A stretch of DNA of 64,000 bases, taken from Hymenobacter siberiensis. GTDB lineage: Bacteria; Bacteroidota; Bacteroidia; Cytophagales; Hymenobacteraceae. Position numbers and translations under genes: made by a program. The DNA lies in NCBI RefSeq assembly GCF_018967865.2, contig NZ_JAHLZY020000001.1, positions 930,001-994,000 of the forward strand, written 5' to 3'. Numbering within the stretch: the stretch's first letter is position 1; each line of letters begins with the position of its first letter. The notes under the pieces were generated by a model that was not told the DNA's origin, did not search any database, and worked only from the letters and a program-made list of their open reading frames with translations. Shown here one piece after another: positions 2,218-7,510 of the stretch.

Positions 2218-4860
2218 TTATATCGAATACGTTGCGGATAGATAATATAATCCGCCCACGCTTGGGCCGCCGAGGTAAGACACATAATACCGGTTGAGCA
2301 GGTTGCTGGCACCCAGCTTGAAGCGTAGGTTGGGCGCGGGCACGGAATAGCTGAGCTGAGCGTCGAGGGTGTGGTAGGCCGGCACGGTACCGTTCACCAG
2401 AAAAGTCTGGGAGTAGTAGTCCTGCTGCCAGCGGTAGTTGAGGCCGAAACCGAAGTTCTTGTAGGCGTTTTCGTTGCCCAGGCTCAGGTTGCAGGCCCAG
2501 CGCGGGGTGTTGAAGCCATCTTCGAGGCCGTCGCCGTTTTCGGTGCGGTCGAGGCGGGTATAGGTGGTGTTGGCCCCCACGAGGTAGCCACCGGGCAACT
2601 CGTAGCGCAGGCCCAGCGAGCCGCCATAGTTATACACCTGGCTCTGCGAGTTGGTCCAGAGGCGGTAGCGGGCCTGGGTAGGTGCCGGGCCGGTGAGGTT
2701 CGTGTTATTGAGCGCCGTGGCGATGGCGTTAAGGTCAGCATTGGCCGGCAGGGGTGCGCCGCCGCCGGAAGCTACCGGCACGTAGGCCTCTACCTGCGCA
2801 ATAAAATCGCGGTAGGAATTATAGTAAAAATCGACATCGGCCAGCAGCCGGCCGCCCGGCCCGAAAGTAGCCTTGTAGCCGGCCTCCAGCGAGCGTATGT
2901 GCTCGGGTTTGATGTAGGTGTAAGGGTTTTTCACCAGCAAGCCCTGGCTGGCGGCAATGGCCTGGGCGCGCGTCTGGCCCGGCGTGCCGTTGATGCCCGC
3001 CGTCACGGCCGCGTTGAAGCGGTCGATACTGCTGCGCAGGTAGCTGTTCTCAAACACGCCATCCGACATCACCCGCAGCCCGCCAATGCGCTTCACCTGC
3101 CCGCTGTTCACATTCGAGAAGCCCTCGAACAGGCTCGGGAATCGGTAGCCGCTCTGATAGCTGAGGCGGAAGTTCTGGCGCGGCGTGGGCGAGAGTACGG
3201 CCGTGAAGCGCGGGTTGATTTTCAGATTGAAATAGTCGTTTTTATCGGCCCGCAGCGTGGCCGTGAGGCGCAGCTTCTCGGCGAAGAACCGGCCGCCGGC
3301 CTGCACAAAACTGCCCGTTTTGGAGTAGGTCAGGTTGTCATTGAGTGGGTCTTTGCCGGGGTTGGGGTTGATGAAATAGTTGCCGTCGGGCACCACGATG
3401 TAGGTGCGGTGGTCGGCCCCGGCCAGCAGGTCGAGGGTGGCGGGCAGGTGCGCGCCGCCGCGCCGCAGGGCTTCGGCCAGGTTGGCTTGGGCCTCGGCGT
3501 GCAACAGGCTGGCCCGCACGCGCAGGGCCGCGCCCACGTCCCAGTTGTTCACGTCCTGCAGCTGGCTGAGGCGCTGGTTGAATGCCGTAGTACCGGGTTG
3601 GAGGCGGCCGGCATCGGCGGCGGCTCGGGCACTGGCCAGGGCCTGGGGCACGGGCTGGCCGCCGGCCGTGGCCGCGTTCCAGGCCGTGGCAAAGTCGCCG
3701 TACCAGGCATTGTCCGGCTTGTAGCTGCGGTCGATGTTCTCGCCCATCGAGCGCAGGTTGTAGCTGCGGCCGGTATTTTCCCGGGTGAAGTAGGCGCGGG
3801 CCTGCACCACGGGCGTGGTCAGGCTCAGAGCGTGCTGCTGCAAGCGGTAGTCCTGCAGCCGGAAGCGGTTGGAGCGCTGGTATACATTGTCGAAACCGGC
3901 TACGCGGTAGGTGTAGGCCAGCTCCGTGCCGGGCCGGAAGCGGTAGTGCAGCGCCGCGTCGGCCTTCAGGGTCTGCAGGTTGTAATCGACCAAATCCCGC
4001 TCGTCGTAGCCGGTGCGGGCCACCGAGTAGCTCTTGCCCCCCAGTGTGAGGTTGCGGCGGTCCGACGACTCGTTGCCGTAGCGGTTCACTTGGTCCTGGG
4101 CCGGGTTGCTGGCCCCAAACAGGCCGGTGGTGGCGTTGCCGTTGGGGTTGATGTCGGTCTGGTCGTGGGCCACCCAGTCGTAGCCGCGCAGAAAAGTGCC
4201 GTTCATCTTGAGCGCCAGCTTATCGGCCACCAGCACCCTGGCGTAACGCAGGCTGGTTTCGGAGAAGATTTTGGCCCCGCTATACGGGTCGCCAACGTGG
4301 TTGACGCCGGTTTTCTGCTGCACGCTCAGGCCCTCGGAGCTGAAGGGGTTTTTCGTCCGGAAGTTGGCTAGCCCGTTGATGGCGTTCAGCCCATAGAGAG
4401 CGGCGGCCGTGCCGGGCACAATCTCCACCGCCATGATATCCAAATCGCTCGGCCCCAGGATATTCCCAATCGGCCCGCCGATGTGCGGGGCCTGGTTGTC
4501 CACGCCATCCACGAGCTGGGCAAAGCGCACGTTGGTGGTGTTGGTGAAGCCCCGAGCATTTATCACCTTGAAAGCCAGGCTGGGCGTAATCACCTGCACG
4601 CCTTTGAGGTGCTCAATGGCATCGAAAAACGACGGTGCGGGCGTGAGCCGCAGCGCCCGCGCGTTGAGCTTTTCCACCGTCACCGGCGACTGCAAAAAGC
4701 CCTCCTCGACTTTGGAAGCGGATACCACTATTTCCTCCAAATCAACTTTCTGGTGGGTCGTATCGGCCGGAGCTATCTGCTGGCCCTGCGCGGCAAAAAC
4801 GGGTAGCCAGGCCGCCGCAAACAGCACCGGGTGGGGGCCAAAGAGTAAACAGGAACGCAT
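2218..4860 (-). CDS. TonB-dependent outer membrane receptor, probably ModE-regulated
   Basis: An 880-residue receptor. The ATG at 4860 starts a good signal peptide (HPVLFAAAWLPVFAAQG); the frame stays open further upstream but would run into the regulator gene. After the signal come a TonB-box-like EEIVVSASK, then a plug domain, about 45-170 (NARGF, VDGVDN, VEIVPGTAAALYG, INGLANF), and a long beta-barrel with alternating aromatic strands to the end. There is no N-terminal carboxypeptidase-like extension, so it is not SusC-type. Ten bases upstream of the start is a ModE-type operator, and the upstream co-oriented gene is a ModE-like regulator. From this I infer uptake of molybdate, tungstate or a chelate of them. 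The substrate cannot be read from the sequence. Confidence 0.9.
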   Translation of the reverse strand: MRSCLLFGPHPVLFAAAWLPVFAAQGQQIAPADTTHQKVDLEEIVVSASKVEEGFLQSPVTVEKLNARALRLTPAPSFFDAIEHLKGVQVITPSLAFKVINARGFTNTTNVRFAQLVDGVDNQAPHIGGPIGNILGPSDLDIMAVEIVPGTAAALYGLNAINGLANFRTKNPFSSEGLSVQQKTGVNHVGDPYSGAKIFSETSLRYARVLVADKLALKMNGTFLRGYDWVAHDQTDINPNGNATTGLFGASNPAQDQVNRYGNESSDRRNLTLGGKSYSVARTGYDERDLVDYNLQTLKADAALHYRFRPGTELAYTYRVAGFDNVYQRSNRFRLQDYRLQQHALSLTTPVVQARAYFTRENTGRSYNLRSMGENIDRSYKPDNAWYGDFATAWNAATAGGQPVPQALASARAAADAGRLQPGTTAFNQRLSQLQDVNNWDVGAALRVRASLLHAEAQANLAEALRRGGAHLPATLDLLAGADHRTYIVVPDGNYFINPNPGKDPLNDNLTYSKTGSFVQAGGRFFAEKLRLTATLRADKNDYFNLKINPRFTAVLSPTPRQNFRLSYQSGYRFPSLFEGFSNVNSGQVKRIGGLRVMSDGVFENSYLRSSIDRFNAAVTAGINGTPGQTRAQAIAASQGLLVKNPYTYIKPEHIRSLEAGYKATFGPGGRLLADVDFYYNSYRDFIAQVEAYVPVASGGGAPLPANADLNAIATALNNTNLTGPAPTQARYRLWTNSQSQVYNYGGSLGLRYELPGGYLVGANTTYTRLDRTENGDGLEDGFNTPRWACNLSLGNENAYKNFGFGLNYRWQQDYYSQTFLVNGTVPAYHTLDAQLSYSVPAPNLRFKLGASNLLNRYYVSYLGGPSVGGLYYLSATYSI

Positions 4861-4869
4861 AAAAACAAA

Positions 4870-4893
4870 CGTTATATCCGTAAATATATAACG
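4870..4893 (-). promoter_or_regulatory. ModE-box-like operator upstream of the TonB receptor
   Basis: Perfect inverted 8-bp arms CGTTATAT (4870-4877) and ATATAACG (4886-4893) around an 8-base spacer, 24 bp in total. The Escherichia coli ModE operator, as I remember it, has the same CGTTATAT arm, the same overall length and a near-identical right arm (ACATAACG). The site fills the 49-base gap between the ModE-like gene and the receptor start and would overlap the receptor promoter or leader. Confidence 0.75.
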
Positions 4894-4909
4894 GATTGCT
4901 GCCTGCCAA

Positions 4910-5269
4910 CTACTCGTGCAGTCGGTTTGTTTCGCGCGCCATGAATTCCTGAAAACGGGCTTGCAGGGCCTGGAACTCCACAATGGCGGCCTGGCCGGCG
5001 GCCGTCACCACTGCCCCGCCGCCTTTGGAGCCGCCGGTTTGGGTGCTCACCAGCGGGGTGGTAGCCTGCGCGTTCATGGAGCTCACCAAATCCCAGGCGC
5101 GCTTGTAGGACATGCCCATGGCCTGTGCGGCCTTCGAGATGGAGCCCAGCGCGGCAATGTGCTCCAGCAATTCCAGCCGGCCGATGCCGAGGAACCGGCC
5201 GTCGTCGGTTTCGAGCCAGAGGCGGCCGTTGAGGCGATAGGAGTGGGTGGGCCGCAGCAGGGATTTCAT
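4910..5269 (-). CDS. ModE-like winged-helix regulator, DNA-binding domain only
   Basis: A 119-residue protein matching the N-terminal DNA-binding domain of ModE: LLEHIAALGSISKAAQAMG, then SYKRAWDLVSSMN, then a Gly-rich TGGSKGGGAVVTAAGQ wing and a C-terminal helix. ModE is the molybdate-responsive repressor. The full-length protein has two C-terminal molybdate-binding (TOBE/Mop) domains, which are absent here, so how the metal is sensed, if at all, is unknown. The start at 5269 is preferred; an in-frame ATG at 5308 adds 13 unlikely residues. It lies immediately upstream of, and co-oriented with, the TonB receptor and the operator-like palindrome, which makes a self-contained regulatory unit. 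Confidence 0.88.
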   Translation of the reverse strand: MKSLLRPTHSYRLNGRLWLETDDGRFLGIGRLELLEHIAALGSISKAAQAMGMSYKRAWDLVSSMNAQATTPLVSTQTGGSKGGGAVVTAAGQAAIVEFQALQARFQEFMARETNRLHE

Positions 5270-7375: not shown

Positions 7376-7397
7376 CCCATTCAAATAGGCGCTAAAA

Positions 7398-7486
7398 AGC
7401 ACGTCATGCAGAGCGGAGCAGCTTTACTGCAATAGCATGGTTACTGTTGCAGTAAAGCTGCTTCGTTCCGCTCTGCATGACGTGCT
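7398..7486. repeat. Palindromic intergenic element (CATGAC family)
   Basis: Long inverted arms beginning AGCACGTCATGCAGAGCGGA and ending in their complement at 7486, with a short loop around 7430-7445. It sits between two convergent genes and can fold in both transcripts. It shares the outer GTCATGC...GCATGAC ends with several other elements in this window. Confidence 0.8.
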
Positions 7487-7510
7487 ATTCGGATAGGTGC
7501 CAAGTAAGCC

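Follow-up and report, generated by a model that had tools for sequence, protein, structure and literature searches.

Why the gene of a TonB-dependent receptor should directly follow a ModE-type regulator gene and a ModE-like palindrome is the question raised by this locus of Hymenobacter siberiensis. The locus is part of a stretch of 64,000 nucleotides (the window), and window coordinates are used throughout. The intergenic gap of 49 bases (4861-4909) is bounded on one side by the start codon of the receptor gene, at 4860 on the minus strand, and on the other by the stop codon of modE (4910-4912). Positions 4870-4893 of this gap carry CGTTATATCCGTAAATATATAACG, which can be written as arms and spacer in the form CGTTATAT-CCGTAAAT-ATATAACG, with perfect arms (8+8) and a spacer of 8 bases. 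An earlier reading of this DNA, made without database searches (the sequence-only reading), had reported a palindrome at this place in the gap, and it is exact when read from the sequence. The same reading had likened its arms and spacing to those of the E. coli ModE operator; both agree with the published consensus ATCGCTATATANNNNNNTATATAACGAT, derived from a footprinted E. coli matrix (PMC2700814).

The palindrome is the sole match within the 64-kb window at three or fewer mismatches, a loose threshold at which 5 of 100 dinucleotide shuffles of the window gave at least one match. The genome (4.83 Mb) possesses one perfect match, at 4870-4893, and three other places with three mismatches each. 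The reversed pattern, used as a control, also gave four places in the same genome, therefore only the perfect site stands out at the genome level.

The regulator gene (4910-5269, minus strand) encodes a protein of 119 aa, for which the domain search returned HTH_1 as the only domain. The match to the ModE_repress model TIGR00637 (7.8e-24, 83.6 bits) remained below the model cut-off of 98.5. The protein aligns with PDB 2ijl and with the N-terminal part of ModE (1b9m, 1o7l), and its start methionine is common to most orthologues (alignment A1). No other gene of this genome matches ModE at E <= 1e-5. The sequence-only reading had described the gene upstream of the receptor as encoding just the ModE DNA-binding domain, which is what the profile and structure matches indicate. 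The C-terminal TOBE domains of a full-length E. coli-type ModE are absent from the protein. A TOBE search of the window genome, PF08402 (TOBE_2) being outside the search, gave four matches, all below the cut-off (E 0.37-0.91), and 12 out of 14 control genomes had TOBE over the cut-off. A separate TOBE sensor protein is not supported, since none of the four genome matches reached the cut-off.

The regulator is of a known type. A ModE with the DNA-binding domain only is presumably a member of the ModE(S) class of the Agrobacterium type, whose activity reportedly depends on Moco or on Moco synthesis. Similar to ModE(S), the protein has a single HTH domain, with a ModE-type winged-helix DNA-binding domain (the TIGR00637 match being below its own cut-off), lacks the molybdate-binding TOBE domain, and has palindromic sites at Mo genes, which are predicted here. 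The nearest solved chain, 2ijl (135 aa), is named a molybdenum-binding transcriptional repressor. Different from ModE(S), the sole near-perfect target in the genome is here the gene of an outer-membrane TonB receptor and not modABC, and the host belongs to the Bacteroidota. Of the unusual way of sensing that the sequence-only reading had proposed, the lack of TOBE in the protein stands; the DNA-binding-domain-only form itself is a known class with relatives in Rhizobiales. The full-length ModE of E. coli shares the DNA-binding domain and the operator arms and spacing (consensus in PMC2700814), but here the protein has no molybdate-binding domain and the genome no TOBE over the cut-off.

The receptor gene (2218-4860, minus strand) encodes a protein of 880 aa with a Plug and a TonB_dep_Rec barrel domain, both over the cut-off, as expected for a TonB-dependent receptor. 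All NCBIfam matches of the receptor were below the cut-off; models of haem and catecholate receptors scored best, and the matches to the IreA, CfrA and CirA models were likewise below it. In the PDB, sequence similarity was found only to the colicin I receptor, over residues 40-195. Elsewhere in the window, an intergenic inverted repeat of about 95 bases was found at 7385-7500; it looks like a repeat of the REP/MITE type, with 68 genome matches among the 40 out of 146 candidates scored, a count in which both strands of one place can appear.

Of 200 family genomes searched for ModE, 109 had a match, at 111 places; the copy in G015 is broken, which leaves 108 genomes with an intact gene. Ninety of the 111 places were fetched. 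The receptor is located downstream on the same strand in 83 out of 90 loci, including that of the window, and all 83 gaps between modE and receptor possess the site (23 with 16/16 arm positions, 44 with 15, nine with 14, six with 13, and one with 12). Among Markov-resampled gaps, 25 out of 4150 reached 12 or more. The 81 distinct sites have arms with 0.9-2.0 bits per base and a mixed spacer with 0.1-1.5. Their flanks show mostly 0.0-0.3 bits; higher values were obtained for the bases adjacent to the arms (0.4-0.6) and for an AAC block located 16-20 bases upstream, which reaches up to 1.0. The scan of related genomes that the sequence-only reading had proposed as a check thus found the palindrome kept in orthologous gaps, in 83 of 83 family loci.

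Seven of the fetched loci have no adjoining receptor. In L034 the receptor starts 1.8 kb further on (L200) with a 15/16 site. The genomes of L038, L093, and L094 have their receptors elsewhere (L199, L202, L201). Locus L086 (genome G003) has no receptor, but a perfect site is present before modABC (L229). The remaining two, L088 and L089, are second modE copies.

In a further scan of named genomes, the best 80 of 413 relatives were kept, and the window-type receptor was present in 22 of these 80. All 22 have a site of at least 13/16 between modE and the receptor, and they include Ferruginibacter, Spirosoma, Arsenicibacter, and Emticicia; many of the Hymenobacter rows among the 22 are genomes already contained in the family count. 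Among the same 80 relatives, 21 loci, most of them from Mesorhizobium, have a site of 13-14/16 at a distance of about 3.05 kb upstream of modE. In L150, one of these 21, the site precedes a modABC-like run, named by reading.

The presence of the site follows that of modE. Sites with at most one mismatch were found in 103 out of 200 genomes, which correspond to 99 of the 108 with intact modE and four of the 92 without; the reversed-pattern control at the same threshold was found in 27 out of 200. Nine modE genomes lack any site at this threshold. Eight genomes possess the receptor without an intact modE, and among these, seven have no site (best 9-11/16) and one has a degraded site (13/16). A site is also retained by receptors whose genome carries modE at another place (L199 with 16/16, L202 with 14/16, L198 with 13/16, and L201 with 12/16). 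The receptor of L199 is located 3.2 Mb from modE in contig coordinates, and L198 is a second receptor copy. The possibility that the site merely serves the promoter of modE itself was rejected, as the site is situated past the modE stop codon, ahead of the receptor, and remains at the receptor in genomes that have modE at a different place. The palindrome CGTTATAT-N8-ATATAACG at 4870-4893, with a counterpart of 12-16/16 in 83 of 83 family gaps (its own counted), is very likely a true ModE operator, as predicted from sequence.

In Bacteroidota, TAnnTTTG is the -7 promoter element, with TTG expected at -33. On the minus strand, the gap can be read as TTG-N18-TATATTTA, with a possible -33 element TTG at 4907-4909 and a possible -7 element TATATTTA at 4881-4888, inside the operator and one base off TAnnTTTG. 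Among the family loci, 51 out of 83 have an exact TAnnTTTG that overlaps the site and is read on the receptor strand, and six out of 83 have one on the other strand; the window belongs to the 32 loci with no exact match on the receptor strand. The AAC block at positions -20 to -16, about 19 bases upstream of the operator and conserved over the 81 sites, is near the expected place of the -33 element, yet it is not TTG in most loci.

Similar sites were found before other genes related to molybdenum. Eight loci have a second site (13-15/16) ahead of a molybdohydroxylase operon (Pfam families checked on L046, the rest by likeness), and in L073 a second site precedes moaA (genome G199). Nine further sites were fetched (L229-L237). 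In L229 and L230 they stand before an Oxidored_molyb-type gene and modABC (families checked for L229; L230 has a ModB match), and in L232, L233, and L235-L237 before molybdohydroxylase operons, by likeness. The site of L231 stands before a CCP_MauG-like gene, the gene of another type of TonB receptor, split in two pieces, and an Oxidored_molyb-like gene, assigned by likeness to L154, and L234 was assigned to no gene class. A modABC locus fetched without a listed site (L238) had none. In at least 13 genomes, the distance between moaA and the receptor is 1.4-5.7 kb. In Leeuwenhoekiella blandensis (L141), a one-domain modE is part of the run moeA-modE-mobA-moeB-moaE-moaC-moaA, with a 15/16 site before moeA. 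The search for Moco riboswitches in ten loci gave nothing that reached any Rfam gathering score.

Since the sites also occur before modABC, moaA, moeA, and molybdohydroxylase operons, the receptor belongs to the molybdenum regulon, as judged by comparison of genomes. The view of the sequence-only reading that site, regulator and outer-membrane transporter form one unit is supported by their conservation and by these sites before modABC, Moco, and molybdoenzyme genes.

Several other arrangements were observed at these loci. A second type of TonB receptor occurs with CCP_MauG-type and Oxidored_molyb-type genes at a ModE-like site in L154, L143, L136, and L231; it has about 660-695 aa in the first three and is split in two pieces in L231 (families checked on L154 only). 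In Flectobacillus longus, modE and a 15/16 site are followed by the gene of a TauE/SafE permease (L130:8511-9251), which may carry oxyanions across the inner membrane. At L046:9164-9742, a small gene of the Crp-like type (cNMP_binding) separates the receptor from the molybdohydroxylase operon and directly precedes the second site; likely counterparts exist in L043, L061, L068, L035, and L049 (family checked on L046 only).

The window genome has moaA, moeA plus a nearby MOT1 molybdate permease, and three MoCoBD matches. No ModB over the cut-off was found in this genome (one weak match, 6.9e-4), whereas MOT1 was, and ModABC was rejected as the importer of the host. Across the 200 genomes, moaA was counted at E below 1e-60 (169 genomes), MOT1 at E below 1e-25 (97), and ModB over its cut-off (35); with curated cut-offs instead, moaA is present in 163 and MOT1 in 127. 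No best MOT1 match fell between 1.9e-26 and 1.5e-8. ModB and MOT1 occur together in no genome at the strong-match thresholds, and given the 127 genomes with MOT1 at the low curated cut-off, this strict split holds only for strong MOT1 matches. One strong importer match was found in 107 of the 108 modE genomes, with ModB in 31 and MOT1 in 76; the remaining one (82% complete) has neither.

Regulator and receptor are present together in 107 of the 200 genomes, modE alone in one, and the receptor alone in eight. All 108 modE genomes possess a strong moaA match (106 over the curated cut-off, with G186 and G193 below). Both modE and the receptor are missing from all 31 genomes without a strong moaA match; 29 of these 31 belong to one genus, and such co-occurrence counts follow phylogeny and depend on the thresholds.

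Receptors about 42-46% identical to that of the window were found in a different genomic setting. Twenty-one places with such sister receptors were chosen among the matches listed, and in 20 of the 21 fetched (L205, L206, L209-L226) the receptor is located among genes for sulfate assimilation. All 20 belong to the genus of the window, and therefore they perhaps represent a single inherited arrangement. The operon comprises cysD, cysN, the gene of a tetrapyrrole methylase, cysJ, the receptor gene, cysI, and a fusion of a TauE permease with an NAD-binding domain. Gene families were checked for L206, L210, and L219, and some stretches are incomplete; L218 lacks cysJ and cysI. At the twenty-first place (L207:3446-10526), a divergent sister receptor is followed by a TauE permease, ChrB, and the chromate transporter ChrA. 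In a tree of 37 chosen rows (midpoint root), the 28 window-type rows are split from the nine sister rows at 100/100, and 49 alignment positions show a consistent difference between the two clades. Sulfate, molybdate, and chromate resemble one another as tetrahedral oxyanions, and together with the sister clade amid cys genes this similarity suggests a receptor family for such oxyanions.

From the computed operator, its conservation and dependence on modE, its place in a molybdenum regulon, the MOT1, Moco, and molybdoenzyme genes of the host, and the lack of ModB and TOBE over the cut-off, we infer binding by the regulator, repression rather than activation, the substrate transported and the signal sensed. 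We consider it fairly probable that the locus is an outer-membrane branch of the molybdenum regulon, in which the one-domain ModE represses a molybdate/tungstate receptor when molybdenum suffices. The regulator would bind the 24-bp palindrome overlapping the receptor promoter; as the bound protein would lie over that promoter, it is most naturally read as a repressor. With enough molybdenum, ModE would shut the receptor off, and because no TOBE was found, the signal is probably the Moco status rather than direct binding of molybdate to ModE. Under molybdenum shortage, the receptor would be made, and molybdate, tungstate or a small complex would cross the outer membrane with TonB energy. MOT1 (PF16983), or ModABC in some relatives, would then carry molybdate across the inner membrane; these proposed partners of the receptor act, unlike the receptor, at the inner membrane. 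The receptor itself is best read as a putative importer of molybdate or tungstate, and its clade is separate from that of the sulfate operons.

The ligand could instead be an organic substrate of a molybdohydroxylase, such as an aldehyde or N-heterocycle, with the receptor under ModE as its pathway needs Moco. The receptor of some relatives is indeed next to a molybdohydroxylase operon: an operon with 2Fe-2S, FAD, and MoCoBD genes follows within a few kb in L043, L046, L061, L068, L039, L060, L049, and L035, and the same arrangement exists in L190-L193 and L195, all without modE. We regard this explanation as unlikely, because the window has no such operon after the receptor, its three MoCoBD genes being elsewhere in the genome, and because of the short distances between moaA and the receptor, the sister clade amid sulfate assimilation, and the receptor tracking molybdate importers across genomes.

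TonB receptors are best known for chelates and are usually taken to serve large or scarce ligands. A Mo or W chelate of the molybdophore or siderophore type might accordingly be the substrate rather than the bare oxyanion, and the below-cut-off matches to IreA, CfrA, and CirA would agree with it. Nonetheless, an oxyanion is suggested by the composition of the sister operon (cysD, cysN, cysJ, cysI, and a TauE permease), and uptake of a chelate seems to us slightly less likely still than that of an organic substrate. That the palindrome is a chance or unrelated sequence between unconnected genes, as matches in the window shuffles might suggest, is almost certainly wrong and was ruled out by the single window match, the occurrence of the site in all 83 gaps despite their differing spacers and flanks, its tracking of modE, and its recurrence before other Mo genes.

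A dedicated outer-membrane route for molybdate, as proposed here, has a parallel in Pseudomonas aeruginosa, where a secreted ModA delivers molybdate through the outer-membrane protein IcmP (PMC11734730), the only such route met in the literature searched. The binding protein there is secreted by a T6SS, whereas here the proposed route is a ModE-linked TonB receptor. A search of open-licence literature, covering titles and the starts of abstracts among the matches listed, in which 'ModE' is confusable with 'model', named no ModE-controlled or molybdate TonB receptor, and no paper on TonB receptors with cysN and sulfate assimilation was found in it. The use of ModE on a TonB receptor and the Mo/sulfate split of the receptor family appear to be new within the literature searched.

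Taken more broadly, the molybdate/tungstate reading would make the receptor part of a Bacteroidota family of TonB receptors for bare tetrahedral oxyanions, with a molybdate/tungstate clade under one-domain ModE and a sulfate clade in cys operons, each with its own inner-membrane permease. We propose this tentatively, as a serious possibility somewhat short of probable, the sulfate link resting on one genus. Small anions such as molybdate and sulfate are commonly assumed to pass through porins by diffusion, yet some bacteria may pump small oxyanions across the outer membrane. The compact one-domain ModE, in a genome without TOBE over the cut-off, offers a setting for studying how molybdenum status can be read by a DNA-binding domain alone. 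With a receptor in the molybdenum regulon and a sister clade in sulfate operons, the uptake of oxyanions across the outer membrane of Bacteroidota becomes directly testable. If such a receptor family exists, the outer membrane of these bacteria would be tight enough that even small inorganic oxyanions need TonB-powered import.
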